Source: Thermococcus gorgonarius
GTDB taxonomy: Archaea; Methanobacteriota_B; Thermococci; Thermococcales; Thermococcaceae
Direction of reading: 5' to 3'
Length of the DNA: 64,000 nucleotides
Assembly (NCBI RefSeq): GCF_002214385.1
Contig: NZ_CP014855.1
Coordinates: 868,001-932,000 of the forward strand
Positions 7,417 to 63,264 of this stretch are shown piece by piece. Each line of letters starts with the position of its first letter. Position 1 is the stretch's first letter. The notes below the pieces were generated by a model, which was given only the letters and a program-made list of their open reading frames with translations, had not been told where the DNA came from and did no database searches. The position numbers and the translations under genes are program-made.

Positions 7417-7513
7417 TCAAAACATGACAGGGGATTTCGACCATTGATCGACCATAAATTTATATTTCCTGATCTAACACTTAAATGCCAATAACTTTCA
7501 AGAGGTGTTATCC

Positions 7514-8806
7514 GTGAAGAAAAACCTGTTTGCAATACTTTTAGTGGGCCTGATGGCCCTTAGTGTGGTAGCCAGCGGTTGCATCAGCGGAGGAAATTCC
7601 ACAGAAACAAAGATAAACATCCTCTACACCTACACCGGCTCCTTCGGTGACCCGGCCAAGGGCAAGCAGGCCGCACAGGCCCAGCTCCAGCAGGGTGCGT
7701 GGGTTATCTACCAGGTCGCGGGTGGAACCGGTCTCGGTGTCTTTGAGGCAGTGGGAGACTACCTGAAGGCGAACAACAAGAAGATGGGCCCGCCGTTTGC
7801 AATAGGCGTTGATTCTGCCCAGGACTGGATTAAGCCCGGCGTTATAATCGCGAGTATGATGAAGCGCGTTGACGTCGGTGTTTACAACGCCGTCAAGCAG
7901 GCAGAAGAGAACCAGTTCAAGGGCGGTGTCGTTGAGCTCGGCCTCAAAGAGGGCGGCGTCAAGCTCTCAACGATTGATGACGTCAAGGACATGTTCGATT
8001 CCCTTCCGGCAGATGTCAGGGAGAAGAAGCTTCAGGAGCTTGGCTTCAAGAGCGAGGATGAATTCATCCAGTTCCTTGAGCAGACCAGGAAGCAGGTTCC
8101 CGACTGGATTTGGCAGGCGGTTGACGACCTCCAGAAGCAGATAGTCAGCGGTGAGATAATCGTTCCCAAGGCCACAGCGAAAGACCAGATTGAGCTCCTC
8201 AGGAAGGCCCAGAACTGGACAATCATGGAGCAGTACGCCAAGGATTGGGCCGCCAATGAGCCAAAGCCGGAAACGTACTTTGATGAGAAGCTCAACCAGA
8301 GGCAGAACACCAAGAAGATAGCCATCGTGTACGACGTCGGCGGTAGGGGCGACCTGAGCTTCAACGATATGGCTTACATGGGCGCCGCAAGGGCAGCAAA
8401 GGAGTTTGGCCTCCAGCTCGTCGAGCTCCAGAGCAACAGCGAGAACGACTACCTCCCGAACCTCAGGAGCCTTGCCAAGAGCGGAGAATACGACATAATA
8501 ATAGCGGTCGGCTTTATGATGACCAACGCCGTTAAGCAGGTTGCCAGCGAGTACCCGAACCAGAGGTTCGTCATAATTGACGGTTACGACCCCGAGATGC
8601 CGCACAACGTCCAGATGGTCCTCTTCAAGGAGAACGAGGGTTCGGCACTTGCAGGAGCACTGGCTTCCCTTATAGCACTCAACAGCGGCAAGGACACGAT
8701 TGGAATCGTCCTCGGTATGGAGATTCCGGTTCTCTACAAGTTTGAGGGTGGCTACCGCTTCGGCGCCTACTGGGCCCTCGACTACTACAAGAACCACAAG
8801 CAGTGA
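7514..8806 (+). CDS. BMP-family nucleoside-binding lipoprotein, circularly permuted
   Basis: This is the substrate-binding lipoprotein of the ABC importer encoded downstream. Residues 1-22 are a lipoprotein signal with Cys23 in VASGC. From about residue 32 the protein reads as the usual C-terminal part of BMP/PnrA proteins: ILYTYTGSF, QVAGGTGLGVFEA, FAIGVDSAQDW, MMKRVDVGVY and ELGLKEGGV. From residue 266 to the stop it reads as the usual N-terminal lobe: KKIAIVYDVGGRGDLSFND, then DIIIAVGF, FVIIDGY and GYRFGAYWALDYY. The order is thus swapped relative to the family, while total length (430) is normal. Start GTG 7514 follows GAGGTG; GTG 7505 is an alternative. TATA TTTATATTT lies at 7459-7467. 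Misassembly is possible. Confidence 0.88.
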   Translation: MKKNLFAILLVGLMALSVVASGCISGGNSTETKINILYTYTGSFGDPAKGKQAAQAQLQQGAWVIYQVAGGTGLGVFEAVGDYLKANNKKMGPPFAIGVDSAQDWIKPGVIIASMMKRVDVGVYNAVKQAEENQFKGGVVELGLKEGGVKLSTIDDVKDMFDSLPADVREKKLQELGFKSEDEFIQFLEQTRKQVPDWIWQAVDDLQKQIVSGEIIVPKATAKDQIELLRKAQNWTIMEQYAKDWAANEPKPETYFDEKLNQRQNTKKIAIVYDVGGRGDLSFNDMAYMGAARAAKEFGLQLVELQSNSENDYLPNLRSLAKSGEYDIIIAVGFMMTNAVKQVASEYPNQRFVIIDGYDPEMPHNVQMVLFKENEGSALAGALASLIALNSGKDTIGIVLGMEIPVLYKFEGGYRFGAYWALDYYKNHKQ

Positions 8807-8829
8807 TTTTTTCTTCTCTTTTGTTTTTC
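8807..8829 (+). terminator. Pyrimidine-rich attenuator/terminator after the BMP gene
   Basis: Directly after the stop codon there is a run of Ts interrupted only by Cs and one G (8807-8829). It probably ends part of the transcripts, so the binding protein would be made in excess over the ATPase and permeases, as is common for binding-protein operons. This is inference from position. Confidence 0.5.
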
Positions 8830-8853
8830 CGTTCGGCTTTGGGGGTGGGTAAC

Positions 8854-10389
8854 ATGGAAGAGAAAACTCCAGTACTTGAAATGAGAGACATTGTCAAGGT
8901 TTATCCCGACGGGACAAAGGCCCTTAAGGGCGTTACAATTAAGGTTTACGAGGGAGAAATCCTCGGACTTCTCGGCGAGAACGGTGCGGGAAAAACGACC
9001 CTCATGAAAATCCTTTTTGGTATGCTCAAGCCGACGAGGGGGAAAATTATCCTCCGCGGTAAGGAGGTTCGTTTCAAAAGCCCAGCCGATGCAATAGCGA
9101 ATGGAATAGGGATGGTCCACCAGCACTTCACCCTTGTCGAGGTCTTCAACGCCCTTGAGAACATCATCCTTGGCATGGAAGGGCACGGCCTGCTGTCAAA
9201 AATTGACATGGAAAACGCCAGAAAGAAACTCCAGAAGTTAATGGACGAGCTGAACTTTCAGGTCCCGCTGGACGTTCCCGTTGAAAACCTTCCCGTTGGA
9301 GTCCAGCAGAGGATTGAGATTTTGAAGATGCTCTACCGTGACGTTGATATCCTCATCCTTGACGAGCCCACAGCTGTTCTCACGCCGATAGAGGTCAAGG
9401 AGCTTTTTGCCGTCCTGAGAAAACTCAAGGAACAGGGAAAGACGATCATTTTCATAAGCCACAAGCTCAACGAGGTCATGGGGATAACCGACAGGGTCAC
9501 CGTCATAAGGAAAGGTGAAGTAGTGGGAACAGTCAAAACGAGCGAGGCGACTCCGCAGATTTTGGCCAGGATGATGGTTGGAAGGGACGTCGTTCTAAGG
9601 ATTGAAAAGCCACCAAAAGAGCCCGGGGATGTTGTGTTCCGGGTCGAAGACCTATGGGTAAAGGGAGATAGAGGCGAGGAAGCCGTTAGGGGGCTCACGT
9701 TCGAGGTCCGCGCTGGAGAGATATTCGGCATAGCTGGAGTTGAAGGAAACGGTCAGAGCGAGCTAATAGAGGCCATAACCGGTCTGAGGAAGGTAGAAAG
9801 GGGCAGGGTCTACCTTAAGGGTGTTGACATCACGGGTAAAAAGCCAAGGGAGTTATACGACATGGGAATGGCCCACATCCCCGAGGACAGAACCCACATG
9901 GGGCTGATTCTGGAAATGAGCGTGATGGAGAACTCGATCCTTGGGATGCACTGGAGGAAGGAGTTCTCAAAGGGGTTCCTGCTGGACTGGGGCAAGGTTG
10001 AGGAACACGCAAAAAGGCTGATCGAGGAGTTTGAGGTGAGCGCACCCGGAACCAGGGCACCAGTTAAGAGCCTCAGCGGAGGAAACCAGCAGAAGCTCAT
10101 AGTCGCCAGGGAGGTCAGCAAAAAACCCGAGTTTATAATAGCCGCACAGCCGACGCGCGGCGTTGACGTCGCCTCAACAGAGTACATCAGGAACTACCTC
10201 GTCAAGCTGAGAAACGAGGGCAAAGCCGTTCTGCTTGTCTCGGCCGACCTTGACGAGGTTCTCCAGCTCAGCGATAGGATGGCGATAATGTACGAGGGGC
10301 AGTTTATGGGTATCGTCAAACCCGAGGAAGTTACCGAGGAGCAGATTGGACTGATGATGGGAGGTGTTAGGGTTGAGCCTCAAAAGTGA
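8854..10389 (+). CDS. Nucleoside-type ABC transporter ATPase, two fused nucleotide-binding domains
   Basis: Two ATPase domains are fused in 511 residues. The first has Walker A GENGAGKTT (about 40-48), a Q-loop, and Walker B ILILDEPTAVLTP. The second has a degenerate Walker A (GVEGNGQSE, about 297-305), signature LSGGNQQK (about 407) and a Walker B-like FIIAAQPTRGVD in which the usual Glu is Gln. The layout and degenerate second site match the BmpC/YufO/RnsB group, which drives purine nucleoside import with BMP proteins. Upstream in-frame codons run through the T-rich stretch and were excluded; ATG 8854 follows GGGGGTGGG. It overlaps the next gene. Confidence 0.93.
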   Translation: MEEKTPVLEMRDIVKVYPDGTKALKGVTIKVYEGEILGLLGENGAGKTTLMKILFGMLKPTRGKIILRGKEVRFKSPADAIANGIGMVHQHFTLVEVFNALENIILGMEGHGLLSKIDMENARKKLQKLMDELNFQVPLDVPVENLPVGVQQRIEILKMLYRDVDILILDEPTAVLTPIEVKELFAVLRKLKEQGKTIIFISHKLNEVMGITDRVTVIRKGEVVGTVKTSEATPQILARMMVGRDVVLRIEKPPKEPGDVVFRVEDLWVKGDRGEEAVRGLTFEVRAGEIFGIAGVEGNGQSELIEAITGLRKVERGRVYLKGVDITGKKPRELYDMGMAHIPEDRTHMGLILEMSVMENSILGMHWRKEFSKGFLLDWGKVEEHAKRLIEEFEVSAPGTRAPVKSLSGGNQQKLIVAREVSKKPEFIIAAQPTRGVDVASTEYIRNYLVKLRNEGKAVLLVSADLDEVLQLSDRMAIMYEGQFMGIVKPEEVTEEQIGLMMGGVRVEPQK

Positions 10390-11419
10390 GCTCAAAGGAT
10401 ACGTAAAGCCCGTGGCGGAGAGCGTCCTCGCGATACTCATTGGGGCCTTTGTGGGGGCCCTCGTCCTCTGGTTCAGTGGCTACAGTGCGGGTTCAGCTTA
10501 TTACTGGCTCATTAAGGGCTCGCTGGGTTCGATAGACGGCATCGCTGAGACGCTGAGCAAATCAGCCCCGCTGATACTAACCGCGATAACCTTCGCTATA
10601 GGAGCTAGGACTGGACTCTTCAACATTGGCGCGGAGGGAACCGTTTACTTCGGCGCCATCTCGGCCATCATAGTTACTCAGCACCTCCAGAACCCGATAG
10701 CGGGACTTTTAGCCGGCATCTTCGTTGGAGCCCTGTGGGCCCTTCCGTCCGCCCTCCTGAAGGTATACCGAGGAGTTCACGAAGTCATCTCGACGATAAT
10801 GTTCAACTGGATTGCCTTCTTCCTGGTCAGCTGGTTGGCCGTCAGCGTTTACTACAACCCCAAGGACCCCAACAGCACGCTTCCCGTTCCGCCGTCAGCC
10901 AGGTTGCCCCTCCTTATGAAGAACACAAGCCTTTCGTGGGCGTTTATAGTCGCCATCGCAACAGCGGTGATTGTTTTCATAGTAATGTGGCATACCAAGC
11001 TCGGCTATGAGCTCAGAACCAGCGGTCAGAACCCCAGGGCGGCCGAATACGGTGGAATAAACCCCAAGAGCTCGATGATATGGTCCTTCCTCATAGGCGG
11101 AATGACGGCCGGGCTGGCTGGTGCCGGAATAGTCATGGGGACCCCGCCGAGCTATGCAATAACCCAGGGCTTGGCCAACGTTTACGGCTACGGTTTCGAT
11201 GGAATAGGCGTTTCCCTCGTCGGGAGAAACCACCCGCTCGGCATAATCTTCTCGGGAATCCTCTTTGGGGCACTCAGTGCAGGTGCAACGGCAATGCAGC
11301 AACACGCCCAAGTACCGCTGGAGATGGTCAAGGTCATTGAGGGTATCATAATCATAGCCGTTGCAGTTCCCGGCTTGCTTGACCTCTTTGCAAAGCTCTT
11401 CAGGAGGGAGGGGGCATGA
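10373..11419 (+). CDS. ABC transporter permease, nucleoside-type, first subunit
   Basis: This integral membrane protein of about 348 residues has roughly 8-10 hydrophobic segments and the family marker NIGAEGTVYFGA (about 88-99), matching BmpF/YufP-type permeases. TTG 10373 is preferred because GGAGGTG lies six bases upstream, the same pattern as in the BMP gene; GTG 10364 is the alternative, three codons earlier. The gene starts inside the ATPase gene and its stop overlaps the next start by four bases, so the subunits are translationally coupled. Confidence 0.92.
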   Translation: MSLKSELKGYVKPVAESVLAILIGAFVGALVLWFSGYSAGSAYYWLIKGSLGSIDGIAETLSKSAPLILTAITFAIGARTGLFNIGAEGTVYFGAISAIIVTQHLQNPIAGLLAGIFVGALWALPSALLKVYRGVHEVISTIMFNWIAFFLVSWLAVSVYYNPKDPNSTLPVPPSARLPLLMKNTSLSWAFIVAIATAVIVFIVMWHTKLGYELRTSGQNPRAAEYGGINPKSSMIWSFLIGGMTAGLAGAGIVMGTPPSYAITQGLANVYGYGFDGIGVSLVGRNHPLGIIFSGILFGALSAGATAMQQHAQVPLEMVKVIEGIIIIAVAVPGLLDLFAKLFRREGA

Positions 11420-12327
11420 ACGAGGCCATGGCAATCAGCCTTCTCCTCGGTTCGCTCGCGGCAATGGTACCAATAGCCCTCACGAGCATAGGTGCGGTGA
11501 TCAGCGAGAGGGCCGGTGTGGTCAACATCGGCTACGAGGGAATCCTCATGTTCTCAGCCTTCTTCGGGGCAATCTTCGCCGAGTTGGCAGGCAACGGCTG
11601 GGTTGGTCTACTAGGAGGGGCGTTAGTTGGACTTCTCCTCGGTGCACTCCACGGCGTTTTGACAGTTTACCTGAAGGGCGACCACGTGATTCCGGGCATA
11701 GGCCTTAACCTCCTCGGCGCCGGTGCCGTCGCCTTCGGAATAAGGGCCTACTGGGGAACGGCAGGTCAGCACCAGGTTCCCAGCAACGCCCAGATTAACC
11801 CCCTCTGGATGGACGCCTTCGGAAACTCCCTCAGTCCCCTCGTGCCAATAACAATCGCGGTGGCGATAATTGCCTGGTGGGTGCTGTTCAAGACGCCCTT
11901 TGGACTGAGAATCCGCGCCGTCGGTGAAAACCCAGAGGCAGCCGATGCCCTGGGAATAAACGTTGAGCTCTACCGTTTCACGGCAGTTTTAATAGCGAGC
12001 GCTCTGGCCGGCATTGCAGGTGCATACCTAAGCGTTGACTGGCTGGGAACGGTGACAAAAACAATATCCGCAGGAAGGGGCTTCATAGCACTGGCCAACA
12101 TGGTGTTCAGCGGCTGGAACCCCTTGATAGCCCTTGGTGGTGCGTTCCTCTTCGGGTTCTTCGATAACCTCGCCATCTACATACAGAACAATCCATGGCT
12201 GGCCGGAACGATACCGTGGCAGTTCATAGCGACCCTGCCGTACGTGGTGACCCTAATAGTGGTTGCCGGAATAATAGGAAGGGCGAGGCCGCCAAAGTGG
12301 GACGGGAAACCGTACAGGAGGGAGTGA
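11416..12327 (+). CDS. ABC transporter permease, nucleoside-type, second subunit
   Basis: This 303-residue membrane protein is the partner permease (BmpG/YufQ type), with about eight hydrophobic segments. The N-terminal VVNIGYEGILMFSAF resembles the equivalent motif of the first subunit, and the cytoplasmic loop FKTPFGLRIRAVGENPEAADALGI is the ATPase-coupling loop typical of this family. The first permease has the matching TKLGYELRTSGQNPRAAEYGGI. ATGA overlap with the upstream gene; last gene of the four-gene importer operon. It converges on the minus-strand gene that ends 12 bases downstream. Confidence 0.93.
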   Translation: MNEAMAISLLLGSLAAMVPIALTSIGAVISERAGVVNIGYEGILMFSAFFGAIFAELAGNGWVGLLGGALVGLLLGALHGVLTVYLKGDHVIPGIGLNLLGAGAVAFGIRAYWGTAGQHQVPSNAQINPLWMDAFGNSLSPLVPITIAVAIIAWWVLFKTPFGLRIRAVGENPEAADALGINVELYRFTAVLIASALAGIAGAYLSVDWLGTVTKTISAGRGFIALANMVFSGWNPLIALGGAFLFGFFDNLAIYIQNNPWLAGTIPWQFIATLPYVVTLIVVAGIIGRARPPKWDGKPYRRE

Positions 12328-12339
12328 ATCCCTCCCCTT

Positions 12340-13323
12340 TCAGCTTTTTAAGATGTAACCCAACGCAGTTCCAAGGGAAAGCCCTGCTAACAGGGCAGAA
12401 ATCAAATACGCCAGGTCAAAGCCCCCAGAGCTCCTGTTTATGCTGACGATCTCTTTTTCACTGACCCTCAGCACGCTAACCGTGTTCTCCCTCAGGACTT
12501 CCGTGTAAGGCTTCCCCTCCCAGAAAACCGTTACCCCGGCAGCGGGCTTTCTGCTCTTCTCCGAGAGCTCAAGAGCAGCCTTTTTCAGCTGATCCGGGCT
12601 CTGAAGGGAGTAGACTATAATATCGAACTCATTGGCCTTGGAAAGAACCTCATCAATGCCGAGGGCGGGAACCTCCTCCTCGGGCTTTATCGAGGCAACT
12701 GCCTTTATCCCAAGCCACTCTATGGCGTACTGGACGGGGGGCATGTTTATCACCGCACTCCTGTTTTCCTCAACAAAGCCCGAATAAGCGTATTTTATCG
12801 CCTCAACCTTCTCCCTGAATTTCTCGAACCTTGGGCTGTATTCCTGGGCGTTGGCTGGGTCGGCCTTCTCCAAAGCTTTCTCGGTTGCCGCGGCAATCGC
12901 TACTGCATTATCGGGATCTAGCCAGGTGCCGTGGGGGTTGTCCTTGCCGCTGTACCACCGCTCGGGAAGATAGTGGAAGCCCTCCCGCTTGTAATCGTCT
13001 ATAAGGAGCAGTTCACCCGTGATCACGCCTTCCTTCTTCAGATCTGCCATCTTACCCTCGACAGGGAGGTGGCCGCCGGTTGTCACTATGACGTCTGCCT
13101 TTTTAAGGAGCTCGACCTGTTCAGCGGTTAGCTGGTATTCGTGGGGGTCGGCCCCGAGAGGAATCAACGTAACGACCTCAACTGAGTCCCCGAAGGCCTC
13201 GCCCACTATCGACGCTATCGGCCCTATGCTTGCCACCACGAGGGGTTTCTCTTCTGAGGCCCCTGAAAATGGCAGGATCATGCCAGTGAGCAGGAGTATG
13301 AGCAGTAATACCCTCGCCTTCAT
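12340..13323 (-). CDS. Metal ABC transporter substrate-binding protein, ZnuA-like
   Basis: This is a cluster A-I metal-binding protein of about 327 residues. A signal peptide covers residues 1-22, without a lipobox Cys. Likely metal ligands are the His in LGADPHEYQ (about 59), the His in DNPHGTWLDPDN (about 130) and acidic residues in the C-terminal lobe (KPEEEVPALGIDE, about 213). A hydrophobic segment at 303-322 followed by KS probably anchors it to the membrane in place of a lipid. Zinc or manganese is the expected cargo. No ATPase or permease partner is adjacent, so it is an orphan here. ATG 13323 is preferred, with GGTGA upstream; GTG 13332 is possible. Confidence 0.85.
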   Translation of the reverse strand: MKARVLLLILLLTGMILPFSGASEEKPLVVASIGPIASIVGEAFGDSVEVVTLIPLGADPHEYQLTAEQVELLKKADVIVTTGGHLPVEGKMADLKKEGVITGELLLIDDYKREGFHYLPERWYSGKDNPHGTWLDPDNAVAIAAATEKALEKADPANAQEYSPRFEKFREKVEAIKYAYSGFVEENRSAVINMPPVQYAIEWLGIKAVASIKPEEEVPALGIDEVLSKANEFDIIVYSLQSPDQLKKAALELSEKSRKPAAGVTVFWEGKPYTEVLRENTVSVLRVSEKEIVSINRSSGGFDLAYLISALLAGLSLGTALGYILKS

Positions 13324-13398
13324 TTCGGTCACCCTAAAAATTTATGGGAAATGGCTTTTAAGAGTATTCATTGAAGAAAAGGCAAGAGCAACAGCCGT

Positions 13399-58134: not shown

Positions 58135-58530
58135 ATGAAGTTTAAAGGAAGGAAGATAGTCGGGGGAAAGGCGGAGGGAGAGCTAATAGTTTCTCAAAAA
58201 CCCCTCTCCTTTTTGGGCGGCGTCGACCCTGAAACTGGCATTGTAACCGATGCTGAGAGCGACATAAGGGGCGAGAGCATAGCGGGGAAGATACTCGCCT
58301 TCCCGCGCGGAAAGGGTTCGACAGTTGGCTCCTACATTATCTACGCCCTTAAAAAGAACGGAAAGGCACCAAAGGCAATTATAGTTGGTGAGGCTGAGAC
58401 GATTGTTTCAACAGGGGCAATAATAGCGGAAATCCCGATGGTGGATGGTATAGACGTGTCAAAGCTGAAAACGGGCATGAGGGTCCGCGTTAACGCCGAT
58501 GAAGGGGAGGTGGAACTACTCGAGGACTAG
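58135..58530 (+). CDS. Phosphomevalonate dehydratase small subunit (aconitase X swivel domain)
   Basis: The 131-residue DUF126 swivelling domain that completes aconitase X. It has GKAEGELIVSQKPLSFLGGVDPETG (about 12-36), with a substrate-binding Ser, FPRGKGSTVGSYIIYAL (about 61-77) and IPMVDG (about 107-112). In the archaeal pathway the two subunits form the [4Fe-4S] enzyme making trans-anhydromevalonate phosphate. GAGGTGAGAGG lies upstream of the ATG; cotranscribed with the large subunit. Confidence 0.92.
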   Translation: MKFKGRKIVGGKAEGELIVSQKPLSFLGGVDPETGIVTDAESDIRGESIAGKILAFPRGKGSTVGSYIIYALKKNGKAPKAIIVGEAETIVSTGAIIAEIPMVDGIDVSKLKTGMRVRVNADEGEVELLED

Positions 58531-58569
58531 TTTTTTAACCCACCAGTTCAAATATCCGGGGGAAGAACG

Positions 58570-59811
58570 ATGACAAAGGGAGTATACGAGTGCGTTAACT
58601 GCGGACATCGGGAAGTACTCGACTCAACAGAACCACTTCTGGAAAAAGCCTGCCCCAAGTGCGGGGGGGACATGGTACTAGTGGGCTTTTCGGTGGAGGT
58701 AGGGGAAACGATTACCTCCCGCCCCACGCTTCCGGCGGAGGTAGAGGAGAAGATCCGGGAGTTTTACTCCGTCGAACCTCTCGAAGTCAGGGAGGGAGTT
58801 TTCACATTTGAGGTTAGGGAAATCATTAACGACGACTTTGAGAGGTTTTTGGGTGAGATAGAGGACTATGGCTACTGGGCAGCTTTGAAAAAATCCAACG
58901 GAAGAGTCGTCCTTTACCTCTTCCCCGCAGGGGAAATCAAACGGGACAACCCCTGGATAGGTGTGCTGCTCTTCATAGCGACGCTTCTCTCAACGCTGTG
59001 GGCGGGATATGTTCTTGCCCTTAACTACATCGGGACCCTCGACGAGTTCGGCTTACCCGGTTACAGAAATCCATACGTGATAAGCCTAGCATTCTCCATG
59101 AGCGTTTTGGGAATACTTGGAACCCACGAGCTGGGGCACAAGATAGCTGCCTCCCTCCACAACGTCAAGGCGACGTTTCCTTACTTCATACCCTTTCCCA
59201 ACCTGCTCGGAACTCTTGGGGCGGTCATAAGGGTAAAGTCCCCCATTCCGACAAGAAAAGCCGCGATCGACCTGGGAGTTAGCGGGCCTCTGGCCGGGAT
59301 TCTGGTCGCAATACCCGTTACGGCGATAGGTCTGAGGCTTTCCACCTTCGTTCCCGTCAGCGCTTTCCAGTCGTTGCCGGGGGAAGGAATATACTTTGGC
59401 ACCAACCTCCTATTTGAGATCCTCCAGAGGGCCATCCTCAACCCGCCCTCAGGAGACTACGTGCTCCTTCTGCATCCGGTAGCCATAGCCGGCTGGGTCG
59501 GGGTTCTCGTTACTTTCCTGAACCTGATCCCCGCGGCACAGCTCGACGGGGGGCACGTAGCCAGGGCTTTCATGAGCGAAAGGCTTCACCGCCAGTTCAC
59601 CTGGGGGATGGGGCTCTTCCTGGTGGTCATGAGCTACTTCTGGGTCGGGTGGTTCCTCTGGGCCCTGCTGATCCTTTTCATCGGAAGCGCCGGAAACCCG
59701 GGGGCTTTGGACGAGGTCTCACCGATACCAACAAGCAGAAAACTTCTGGCCCTCCTGGCGGCAATTCTCTTTGTACTGACTGCCACGCCGGTCCCATTTT
59801 ACACGGGCTAA
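58570..59811 (+). CDS. Site-2 protease family metalloprotease with N-terminal zinc ribbon
   Basis: This 413-residue protein opens with a zinc ribbon (CVNCG near 6-10, CPKCGG near 29-34) followed by an extramembrane region to about 125. About six to seven membrane helices carry the M50 motifs: zinc-binding HELGHK (about 187-192) and the LDGGH motif in NLIPAAQLDGGHVARAF (about 319-335). Such proteases cut membrane-bound regulators or signal remnants. It overlaps the convergent regulator gene by four bases. The zinc ribbon at the N-terminus is a common archaeal variation. Confidence 0.9.
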   Translation: MTKGVYECVNCGHREVLDSTEPLLEKACPKCGGDMVLVGFSVEVGETITSRPTLPAEVEEKIREFYSVEPLEVREGVFTFEVREIINDDFERFLGEIEDYGYWAALKKSNGRVVLYLFPAGEIKRDNPWIGVLLFIATLLSTLWAGYVLALNYIGTLDEFGLPGYRNPYVISLAFSMSVLGILGTHELGHKIAASLHNVKATFPYFIPFPNLLGTLGAVIRVKSPIPTRKAAIDLGVSGPLAGILVAIPVTAIGLRLSTFVPVSAFQSLPGEGIYFGTNLLFEILQRAILNPPSGDYVLLLHPVAIAGWVGVLVTFLNLIPAAQLDGGHVARAFMSERLHRQFTWGMGLFLVVMSYFWVGWFLWALLILFIGSAGNPGALDEVSPIPTSRKLLALLAAILFVLTATPVPFYTG

Positions 59812-60359
59812 TCCAGCTTTTTTTCCTTTAATATCTGCTGGATGTCATAGTATATGGTATCCCTGGAAACGCCAAAGACCCTGGCAAGTTCAGAGATGTT
59901 GAGAACTTTGGGATTGTAATCGAAGAGGGAAAGAACGTGGGCCAAAAGCTCCCTCCGGTCCTGGGTCTGTAAAACCTCTGAGGCCTGAAGTGCGGGCCTG
60001 TTGTAGGCGACCATTCCAACAGCATACGTTCTCCTGGTTACGGGCGTTGTATAGGACCCGACCCTGAAGGATACAACGTCCGCGTTCTGTATAATGGGGT
60101 TTAGCTTATCAATAACACCAAGAACAGCGGCCTCTCTTCCGCCCCCGGTAGAATAGACAACGGCCAAATCACCGCCCGTCTTTGACTCATCAACAAGGAG
60201 AAGTGCAGATAGGTGCATAAACGCACCGAACGTTAGGTTAAGTTGTGCAGAGACTATATACCACCCGGTTCTGTCTTTAGCGGTTTTAAGTTTCTCCATG
60301 AAATGATTTACCCCATCTTCAACGCTCGCTGATTCGGCGGAGATGTACACCAGTTTCAT
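59808..60359 (-). CDS. Putative HTH transcriptional regulator, Thermococcales type
   Basis: The last 45 residues of this 183-residue protein form an HTH (NISELARVFGVSRDTIYYDIQQILKEKK, about 155-182). The N-terminal part is an alpha/beta domain (KLVYISAESASVEDGVNHFMEKL, AVVYSTGGGREAAVLGVIDKL) with no recognised ligand site. TATA TTTATATAAC (60391-60400) gives a very short leader. It is divergent from the pilin-like genes, which makes it a candidate regulator of them. Domain family otherwise unknown. Confidence 0.7.
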   Translation of the reverse strand: MKLVYISAESASVEDGVNHFMEKLKTAKDRTGWYIVSAQLNLTFGAFMHLSALLLVDESKTGGDLAVVYSTGGGREAAVLGVIDKLNPIIQNADVVSFRVGSYTTPVTRRTYAVGMVAYNRPALQASEVLQTQDRRELLAHVLSLFDYNPKVLNISELARVFGVSRDTIYYDIQQILKEKKLD

Positions 60360-60629
60360 ACTCTACACTCCTCGTTAATCTGGCGAAAAAGTTATATAAA
60401 AGTTTTTGAACTTGGAGTTAGTCACTGCCCACCTAATAATCAGAGCGCATTGAATAGAGACCAACAATAACTGGGTTAGCTTGTTCTTCTTCCAGCAGAT
60501 TTACTGAGTAGTTAAAGGTTCACTGTCTATACCCAGATTTGCCGGGATATCCCACAAATGTGATGAGAAATCTATATAAGGCAGAGTAATGCAAGATATC
60601 ATGAAGAACCCACACGGAGGTGGTTTGAA
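60360..60629. promoter_or_regulatory. Divergent promoter region between regulator and pilin-like genes
   Basis: It contains the minus-strand TATA of the regulator (60391-60400) and a plus-strand TATATAAG (60573-60580) for the pilin-like gene, giving a leader of about 30 bases with GGAGGTGG at 60615-60622. The 170 bases between hold no recognised gene, RNA or clear palindrome. Confidence 0.6.
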
Positions 60630-60815
60630 ATGAAGAGGAAGGCTCAGGGTGCAATCGAGTACCTGTTTATGATTGCAGCGGCCCTGATAATCATAGCCGT
60701 TGTCATAAGGTACCTTAGGAGCTCAGGTCAGAAGACCGGGGAGACAATCAGCAGCGGGCAGGAGCAATTGAACTCCAAAGTCAATGAGGAGCTCAGCAGT
60801 GCTCTTGGCAGCTGA
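60630..60815 (+). CDS. Class III signal peptide (pilin-like) protein
   Basis: The 61-residue protein starts with MKRKAQGAIEYLF, the class III signal peptide (DUF361) cut by the EppA-type peptidase before Gln, followed by a hydrophobic helix (about 12-28) and a short polar, helical tail rich in Ser and Glu. Such pilin-like proteins assemble into surface fibres in Methanococcus and relatives. The ATG follows GGAGGTGG. It is paired with a second pilin-like gene 40 bases downstream. Confidence 0.88.
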   Translation: MKRKAQGAIEYLFMIAAALIIIAVVIRYLRSSGQKTGETISSGQEQLNSKVNEELSSALGS

Positions 60816-60855
60816 TTTCAAACGTTTTTCCTTTTTATTCCTGGAGGGCAAAGTT

Positions 60856-61056
60856 ATGAGAAGATTAAGGGCCCAGGGGGCCGTGGAATACCTCCTTATG
60901 GCGGCGTTGGTTCTGATTATTCTTGTCTGGGGTTTCCACTACTTAAGGATAGCCAAAGGAGAACATGGAAATCTTGCAGAGTCTCTCTCGTCTTCTGAGA
61001 GCCGCTTAAACGAAAAAATAAGGAGTGAAATATCCTCAAACCTGAACTCCAGCTGA
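60856..61056 (+). CDS. Class III signal peptide (pilin-like) protein, second copy
   Basis: The 66-residue paralogue begins MRRLRAQGAVEYLLM, a class III signal peptide, followed by a hydrophobic helix (about 12-28) and a Ser/Glu-rich tail (about 38-66) similar to the first. The reading frame is open upstream into the first gene, but ATG 60856 has CTGGAGGG upstream and gives the right signal. Its stop touches the end of the convergent glycosyltransferase gene. Confidence 0.85.
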   Translation: MRRLRAQGAVEYLLMAALVLIILVWGFHYLRIAKGEHGNLAESLSSSESRLNEKIRSEISSNLNSS

Positions 61057-63264
61057 TTAATTTTCCGCCTCGATTCTGACCTCTCTGCATTGTATAACGA
61101 CCTTGGATGAAGTTACCAGCGTTACCGTGCTGTTGCCTCCCACTGAAAAGCTCCCTTCGGGATAGAAAACCGTAAACTTACCACGGGTGCCTTCCCTGAG
61201 GAGCTTTCCGTTCTGAATGGCCACTGCGTTCTCCTTAAACTCTATAGTCAGGTTCACGACCACAGGGAAAGACAGTGTTAAAGAATTTCCATCCTGGGAA
61301 AGACGAACTGCAATTGAATTTCCATTCCGGGAGTAATAAGCGAGGTCATACTCTCCGTTGGGGTTCCTCTTGATGATTGCCCTCCACGAGTATGTGACGT
61401 TGCCAACTGAAGGATAAACGTAGGCAACCTCACTCCCATTTACCCACAGCTGAAGCTTCCCGAAGAAGGATGAGAACCCTATCACGTGAGATTTTTCCTC
61501 AGAGTTGTTAAAGAGCTCTATAACGTCTCCTCTGCCATAGCTTTCGGCGTAGAGGAGCGAGCCGTTCACGACTGCGCGTTCCTTTAGTTTTCCGAAGGTT
61601 TTCTCAAAAACTTTGGATTCCCTGCTCATTGCGTACATCCACGTACTGAAAAGCATGTAATCGCTTTTGTTTGCAGTCTCCCAAAGCCGGCTAGAGTTCC
61701 CCATATAGACAATCCCGAAGGTGTCAAGGCAGTAGGGATCGACCCGGAGGTTTAAGTAGTAGGCGTTAAAGGGGTTGACCGAGAGATACGTCCCGTGCAG
61801 GTTCGTGTTTTGAATATACTCACCAAGATCGTCCCTGAGGTCTTTACTGTGGCTCGCCCAGGCGATGAGCAGTTTTCCATTCCGGTAGTTGTAGGCGATC
61901 CCATAATCCGCCACCCCAAAAACCAGAACAATTGCAAAAGCTAAAGCAAGGAGCTTTCTCCCTTCAAACCTGCCCGGGAGAGATTCAAAAAACGCCAGGT
62001 ATGCCGTTAGCACCATTGGATAAAGGAACCGTATGTTCGGAATTACGGGGAAAAGGAGAAGATACATAACGGAGGAGACTACGAGGAGTGGGCCTGCAAC
62101 AGACGGCCTTCCTATTTTCTCCCCTCTGCTGAAGTAAAAGAGTAAAACCGTGAAGATAAAGATCAAGGGCACGTAAAAAACAACGAAGTCCGGCTTTTCG
62201 TTCGTGAATTTTCTAAGGATAGTTGAAAGGAGGTCAAAGAATCCGGCCAGGGGAATGTACCTGGAACCTTGGGCAAGATACGTCTGGTTAAAGTAATCTG
62301 CACTCACACCGAATCCCAGGATGCCCTCTATCACAGCTTTAGGGAGCAGAAAGGCCAGAAGGTACTGAAGGGCCGTTTTTAAGTTCCTGAGAATCAGATA
62401 GACAGAGCGCACAATTTTTCTGAGGTAAGATATCCTGAAGATGTAGAGGGTCAGAAAGCCCCAGAGTATCAAAAAGATCCCAGCCGGAATGACGTGTCCA
62501 ACAACGTCTATTCCATGCACCCCGGGGAGTATCAGGATGTGTCTCAGCTCATCCGATGGATAAAGCATTACCGCGCCCACGACGAGGAGGGACATGATGC
62601 CGTAGGTAACGAGAACAAGAAAAACCTGAACCCTGTTGAGCAGAACCCTGCCGAGGCCATCGAGGTAGGATTCGGTCTCGGCGTCAATGAAGAACACGAG
62701 AACAACGTAAAGGGCCGCTGCATAGGGCAGTATCGTAAACTTGGAAGTACTTCCAACTCCCGCCCAGAAGAGTGACCAGAGGGCATCCTTTCTGTTTCTA
62801 TGCTTTACGTACCTGACGAAGTAGTAGAGGGAAAGCAGAGTGAAAAGCTCAATCGTGGTCTCGTGAAACACGAGGCCGTTCATATGAACCATTATGGGAT
62901 CCATAGTAACAACGGCCGAGAAGAGAATTCCAGTTTTCCAATCGCGAAGCTCCCGGCCGACAAGGTAGGCGACTAAAGCAGCCAGAAGTCCCAGAAAAAC
63001 GGAGAGGAGTCTTCCAACGACGTAGCTGTCTCCAAAAATGCGGAGCCAGAGGGCGAGAAGGTAGTAATAAAAAGGTGGATGAACAGCGTAAATATCGCGG
63101 TAAGGCAGCACTCCGTGGTTGATGAACCTGGCTATCATTAGGTATGTGCCCTCGTCGTAGTCGAAATACTCGTTCATAGCAGACGAGATTCCCCAGAGGC
63201 GGGTCACGAGGTAGTAGGCTAGAAGAATTGAAAGGAGCATCGCACTCTTTTTCCTGTCCTTCAT
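61057..63264 (-). CDS. Membrane glycosyltransferase, GT39/ArnT-like
   Basis: A protein of about 735 residues with 11-13 membrane helices in the first two thirds and an extracytoplasmic beta-rich C-terminal domain. The first loop carries EYFDYDEGTYLMIARF (about 32-47), the Asp-Glu motif of dolichol-phosphate-dependent GT-C enzymes (PMT/ArnT). The HPPFYYYLLALWLRIFG that follows (about 62-78) is typical of GT39/GT83. It would transfer a sugar from a lipid carrier to a surface molecule. ATG 63264 follows GGAGGAG. A small gene lies one base upstream. Confidence 0.85.
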   Translation of the reverse strand: MKDRKKSAMLLSILLAYYLVTRLWGISSAMNEYFDYDEGTYLMIARFINHGVLPYRDIYAVHPPFYYYLLALWLRIFGDSYVVGRLLSVFLGLLAALVAYLVGRELRDWKTGILFSAVVTMDPIMVHMNGLVFHETTIELFTLLSLYYFVRYVKHRNRKDALWSLFWAGVGSTSKFTILPYAAALYVVLVFFIDAETESYLDGLGRVLLNRVQVFLVLVTYGIMSLLVVGAVMLYPSDELRHILILPGVHGIDVVGHVIPAGIFLILWGFLTLYIFRISYLRKIVRSVYLILRNLKTALQYLLAFLLPKAVIEGILGFGVSADYFNQTYLAQGSRYIPLAGFFDLLSTILRKFTNEKPDFVVFYVPLIFIFTVLLFYFSRGEKIGRPSVAGPLLVVSSVMYLLLFPVIPNIRFLYPMVLTAYLAFFESLPGRFEGRKLLALAFAIVLVFGVADYGIAYNYRNGKLLIAWASHSKDLRDDLGEYIQNTNLHGTYLSVNPFNAYYLNLRVDPYCLDTFGIVYMGNSSRLWETANKSDYMLFSTWMYAMSRESKVFEKTFGKLKERAVVNGSLLYAESYGRGDVIELFNNSEEKSHVIGFSSFFGKLQLWVNGSEVAYVYPSVGNVTYSWRAIIKRNPNGEYDLAYYSRNGNSIAVRLSQDGNSLTLSFPVVVNLTIEFKENAVAIQNGKLLREGTRGKFTVFYPEGSFSVGGNSTVTLVTSSKVVIQCREVRIEAEN

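Follow-up and report, generated by a model that had tools for sequence, protein, structure and literature searches.

A lipoprotein gene of Thermococcus gorgonarius encodes a BMP/PnrA-type protein whose two halves stand in reversed order. We are highly confident that this lipoprotein of the nucleoside importer NupDABC was circularly permuted once, and that Thermococcus species have since swapped its four-gene block in place through homologous recombination. It also seems likely that the permuted operon is a single-origin allele that spread across Thermococcus by repeated in-place exchange with the normal-order operon, via the conserved codons of the signal peptide and of the permease C-terminus, and that the permuted and normal forms are, in nature, interchangeable alleles of one locus.

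Few natural circular permutations of ABC binding proteins have been described, and those that we found are TpMglB-2 and NupD. For type I binding proteins, TpMglB-2 already provides a natural example of permutation (PMC4990184), and the permuted protein itself has been reported from T. kodakarensis, where TK0657 (NupD) was published in October 2025 with a 'flipped' arrangement and with genetic evidence of nucleoside uptake (PMC12628685). The original prediction, which knew of no permuted member of the family, is thus superseded on this point, TK0657 being 85% identical to the T. gorgonarius protein. What appears to be new is the distribution of the permuted form and the exchange of its operon: a search of openly licensed papers found no literature on either, and in the main text of PMC12628685 we found no statement on the distribution of the form or on exchange of the operon between species.

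The permuted lipoprotein and its operon

The gene lies in the window, i.e., the whole stretch of 64,000 nucleotides of the T. gorgonarius genome that was analysed (Table 1). The open reading frame begins with GTG at 7514, preceded by a Shine-Dalgarno-like GAGGTG at 7502-7507, and ends with the stop codon at 8804-8806, and the lipobox cysteine is Cys23 (codon 7580-7582). Within 7505-7516, a further in-frame GTG lies upstream at 7505 and overlaps the Shine-Dalgarno-like sequence, and automatic annotation may begin the protein three residues early. This is the only Bmp gene in the genome, which is a single contig.

The protein matches the Pfam Bmp profile (PF02608) at 177.7 bits against a cut-off of 24.1 (whole-protein E 3.6e-52). 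The match comes in two stretches of reversed order, with profile positions 148-288 in the N-terminal half followed by positions 4-149 at residues 270-418, and not as the single collinear stretch with the N-terminal part first that is expected of a family member. Solved relatives align with the protein in the same reversed manner; in the best of them, 4pev, residues 52-211 correspond to residues 266-420 and residues 217-395 to residues 31-217. These matches, together with the same arrangement in 20 further genomes, bear out the predicted circular permutation. The transport operon was also correctly predicted to be intact, as one ABC_tran protein and two BPD_transp_2 proteins are encoded downstream.

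Table 1. Features of the permuted operon and its surroundings (positions in the window)
Feature	Position	Strand	Basis
TATA-box-like TTTATATTT, putative promoter element of the operon, ~50 bases 5' of the start codon	7459..7467	+	read from the sequence
Circularly permuted BMP/PnrA-type nucleoside-binding lipoprotein, NupD orthologue, 430 aa	7514..8806	+	ORF, Pfam, PDB matches, TK0657 orthology (PMC12628685)
Signal peptide of the lipoprotein, closed by the lipobox ASGC; sequence in common with the normal-order alleles of related species stops here, which makes it the 5' border of the exchanged block	7514..7582	+	
Exchanged block, ~4.75 kb: the body of the permuted SBP, the ATPase and the two permeases, all substituted together in comparison with normal-order relatives	7583..12327	+	identity profiles, trees
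Block a, now first (residues 31-248): what comes second in the normal BMP protein, namely the remainder of the C-lobe, the second N-lobe segment and the C-terminal helices	7604..8257	+	
Linker from old C-terminus to old N-terminus, ~21 residues (246-266); probable fourth inter-lobe connection	8249..8311	+	
Block b, first part of the normal BMP protein (first N-lobe segment, first C-lobe strand and helix), now last; residues 266-427	8309..8794	+	
ABC transporter ATPase, NupA-like, two ABC_tran domains; start codon 8854 assumed	8854..10389	+	PF00005; TK0658 orthologue by position
Permease, BPD_transp_2	10364..11419	+	PF02653
Permease, BPD_transp_2; conserved C-terminal codons form the 3' border of the exchanged block	11416..12327	+	PF02653; identity borders
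znuA-like convergent gene, judged by inspection to belong to a zinc/metal-binding protein family; lies downstream of both alleles and is not part of the block	12340..13332	-	

TK0657 corresponds to G023:C1:559513-560802, an assignment made because this gene contains the two mutated positions, 559628 and 559861, given in PMC12628685. It gives a full-length collinear match to residues 1-430, and the two proteins share the permutation, the junctions and the operon order (SBP first, then ATPase, permease and permease), differing only by sequence divergence; both mutation sites, T39 and K117, are conserved in the T. gorgonarius protein. Normal-order loci have the same layout, SBP-ATPase-permease-permease followed by the convergent znuA-like gene, and the latter adjoins the operon in all 21 larger loci examined, whether permuted or normal. 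In G072, the sister of T. gorgonarius in the tree, a normal-order gene sits between the same AHCY-Trm-HAD genes and the znuA-like gene.

Distribution and phylogeny

The permuted order occurs in 22 of the 94 Thermococcaceae genomes searched, T. gorgonarius included. Twenty other genomes of the Thermococcus group gave collinear full-length matches to residues 1 or 3 to 430 at 80-93% identity, one further permuted copy was cut by a contig end, and ~60 genomes gave a two-piece match in normal order, the pieces lying a few residues apart and the gene occupying the corresponding locus. The form is therefore common but far from universal in the Thermococcales, and the permutation is not the recent local event that had been supposed but old and of single origin. 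No full-length permuted match was found outside the genus of T. gorgonarius in a search of the whole phylum (115 genomes), and a scan of named genomes matched five Thermococcus metagenome bins, all permuted. Per half, permuted and normal SBPs are ~63-79% identical within the Thermococcus-like genera.

In a tree of the SBPs, for which the halves had been rearranged into the same order, all permuted operons form one clade with an SH-aLRT of 100, as they do in the permease trees. The ATPase tree requires two changes between types rather than one, and none of the ATPases has a nearest relative of the other type. When the tree is rooted on Pyrococcus-like sequences, the permuted clade branches off deeply, next to the normal operons of both the genus and its neighbouring genera, and its age is roughly that of the split between the Thermococcus-like genera. 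The species tree, built from a 6.1 kb rpoB/rpoA' codon alignment of 60 genomes, scatters the same operons: the permuted form needs at least 10 changes, nine of which are forced by well-supported branches. Imposing a single permuted clade on the species is rejected (AU p 1.3e-59), and none of 200 bootstraps gave a one-change tree. Eight changes remain when only genomes at least 98% complete are kept, and four when only assemblies of at most seven contigs are. The result was unchanged with the metagenome bin G053 (53% complete) omitted from the species tree; this bin holds both a permuted operon (L049, G053:C17) and a normal one (L099, G053:C27), whose leaders point to two different sources, so that it may be mixed.

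The normal-order operons of G088 and G001, which belong to other genera, group within the normal operons of the genus of T. gorgonarius. This suggests that normal operons have been exchanged too.

Identity borders of the four-gene block

Sliding identity was compared in close pairs of one permuted and one normal genome (G032/G019, G042/G030, G016/G039 and also G022, G023/G027 and also G069, and G000/G072). Across all five, identity is mostly 80-97% upstream of the lipobox, drops to ~60-85% over the 4.75 kb holding the SBP, ATPase and both permeases, and mostly returns to 80-95% just past the last permease. The exceptions are a 63-67% stretch within 750 bases upstream of the T. gorgonarius gene and weaker leaders for G023. 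Control pairs of two normal genomes mostly stay at 73-98% throughout, and distant pairs of two permuted genomes (G032/G024 and G000/G024) are consistently 80-94% identical only inside the block. At single-base resolution, G042 is nearly identical to G030 as far as the lipobox cysteine codon and loses all resemblance immediately beyond it, and G032 and G019 break at the 5' end in much the same way; the 3' border lies in the final, conserved codons of the second permease gene. In its leader, G016 resembles G042 more closely than its own sisters, so some crossovers lie further upstream; with the leaders of G023 and G016 each matching a more distant species, not every 5' crossover is at the lipobox.

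Taken together, the single clade, the ten or more changes on the species tree and the identity borders make the permuted operon look like a single-origin allele exchanged in place. One permutation event would have occurred in an old lineage, after which the four-gene block would have been swapped between species, replacing or being replaced by the normal-order operon through homologous recombination at its conserved ends; the crossovers would typically fall in or close to the stretch encoding the signal peptide and the final codons of the second permease gene. The direction is indicated in two cases, since the permuted genomes G016 and G042 are nested among normal ones, pointing to replacement of normal by permuted in both. 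A search of plasmid and phage records returned no Thermococcus-like or permuted relative, only matches below 60% identity, mostly bacterial, and a search of viral contigs returned one weak match, so no plasmid or virus carrier was found.

The depth of the permuted clade, roughly as old as the Thermococcus-like genera, and the presence of both types of binding protein in two genomes (G042 and G053) might instead be taken to mean that the permuted and normal operons are ancient paralogues, which coexisted in the ancestor and of which each lineage lost one. We consider this quite unlikely. The two types share one locus and its flanks, the flanks follow the species, and the borders at the lipobox and at the end of the last permease are sharp; loss of one paralogue would not graft the leader of one species onto the other type. 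Moreover, the second copy in G042 is part of a kinase fusion elsewhere in the genome, and G053 is the incomplete and possibly mixed bin.

In-place exchange of this kind would make the operon a clear example, in hyperthermophilic archaea, of a gene cassette with defined ends that can be swapped as a whole. It is unusual to have a close normal-order counterpart for comparison, and here the two forms are found at the same locus in sister species; the permuted form also occurs in T. kodakarensis, a species open to genetic manipulation, and the effects can be tested directly. It could be asked whether the permutation and the move of the anchor to the other lobe alter binding, docking or transport, and whether a permuted binding protein needs permeases of its own type.

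Architecture and function

Normal-order proteins have a hinge of the form ...GGYRFGVKWAEDYYKQKTGKDVNIDILYTYTGSF... (a composite of typical sequences). The permuted protein ends in ...GGYRFGAYWALDYYKNHKQ and, after the lipobox and a short linker, starts with ...TKINILYTYTGSF, and the cut therefore falls within the hinge loop. The N-lobe of BmpD and BmpA comprises residues 8-115 and 243-269 and the C-lobe the remainder (PMC7093131, PMC13325309), which places the first crossover between lobes at about residue 371-375 of the T. gorgonarius protein. The cut lies ~55 residues past this point, after the first strand and helix of the C-lobe, in an alpha-beta loop, so that the break, which had been proposed to coincide with the first lobe crossover, is instead inside the C-lobe. 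Of the normal protein, the C-terminal helix (TWQEMEELAKQW) is kept as NWTIMEQYAKDW, up to about residue 245, and ~21 residues then lead into KIAIVYDVGG, somewhat fewer than the 25 first attributed to this linker. The linker may form a fourth connection between the lobes, as described for TpMglB-2, and the lipid anchor would be attached to the C-lobe instead of the N-lobe.

Compared with PnrA, BmpD and BmpA (PF02608; PDB 2FQW, 6SHU and 9Q1U) and with 4pev, the protein belongs to the same domain family of lipoproteins of nucleoside ABC importers and has the same pocket residues where these were mapped; it is set apart by its reversed halves, the additional linker and the probable shift of the anchor. 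In an alignment to 2fqw and 7x0r with an assumed numbering offset of 15, the base-stacking Phe36 and Phe186 of PnrA correspond to F283 in the former first half and F44 in the former second half, and Asp27 corresponds to D274; the geometry of the pocket is probably that of PnrA. An AlphaFold2 model made from the protein and five relatives (six sequences) was poor (pLDDT 49), and the fold is therefore based on homology and on the published AlphaFold3 model of TK0657, which is reported to resemble PnrA (PMC12628685). The chain would fold as the usual two-lobed trap, with its new ends in a C-lobe loop and its old ends bridged by the linker, and, tethered to the membrane, would pass nucleosides to its own two permeases.

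The protein is thus most likely the substrate-binding lipoprotein of a NupDABC nucleoside importer, and the permuted transporter very probably works. Its functional counterpart is BmpA-NupABC of Lactococcus lactis: according to PMC12628685, TK0658-0660 are 33-47% identical to the ATPase and permeases of that system, and BmpA matches TK0657 only partially (35% identity over 36% coverage), as expected because BmpA has the normal order. One could imagine that the protein took on a new function, as a receptor or for another substrate, given the anchor on what would be the opposite lobe and the divergence of the entire operon from the normal one, the permeases being ~55-73% identical between types. 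Such a change is very unlikely, as the permuted protein retains the pocket phenylalanines, K117 and D274 and travels with its own intact ATPase and permeases; furthermore, as reported in PMC12628685, deletion of TK0657 in an evolved strain slowed growth on adenosine or uridine and abolished it on guanosine, inosine or cytidine.

Origin of the permutation

Tandem duplication followed by loss of the outer halves, as originally proposed, is a plausible origin of the permutation, and no intermediate was seen among the genomes searched (94 Thermococcaceae; 115 in the phylum). The glucose-binding TpMglB-2 (Tp0684), assigned to 'Type Ic / Cluster Bc', is likewise a type I substrate-binding lipoprotein that has been permuted naturally, its lobes being joined by a fourth connection, but it belongs to a sugar-binding family, and in it the cut lies inside the N-lobe, the first three strands of which have moved to the C-terminus (PMC4990184). 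In the T. gorgonarius protein, by the lobe limits of PMC7093131, the cut is in the C-lobe, and the part moved consists of the entire first N-lobe segment plus the C-lobe's first strand and helix. The protein therefore falls outside that type, and the two permutations are not homologous as permutations.

The patchy occurrence of the permuted form on the species tree could in principle reflect permutation arising independently several times in different Thermococcus lineages, but this is exceedingly improbable, as all permuted SBPs and permeases form one clade and share the same two junctions. Finally, although the T. gorgonarius order was read from an assembled sequence, chance and a misassembly or local sequencing artefact that misplaced the halves are excluded for practical purposes by the identical order in the 20 independent genomes, several of them single contigs, and in independently built metagenome bins, by the intact frame and operon, and by the experimental study of an orthologue by others (PMC12628685).

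Two normal-order genes showed unusual structures. L100 (G040:C1, ~233900-234962) lacks the C-terminal helices after a change of frame (ending in ...EEAQAEDHQR), and might represent a frameshift or a truncated allele. The fusion in G042 (L098:2873-5965; G042:C1, ~58372-61464) is an open reading frame of 1031 residues in which a BMP domain of normal order (35-322) is fused to a transmembrane stretch, DUF7662 and a Ser/Thr protein kinase domain (649-898). The full fusion occurs only in G042 among the 94 genomes, the kinase part being widespread on other frames, and it is likely a nucleoside-sensing receptor kinase in an archaeon.
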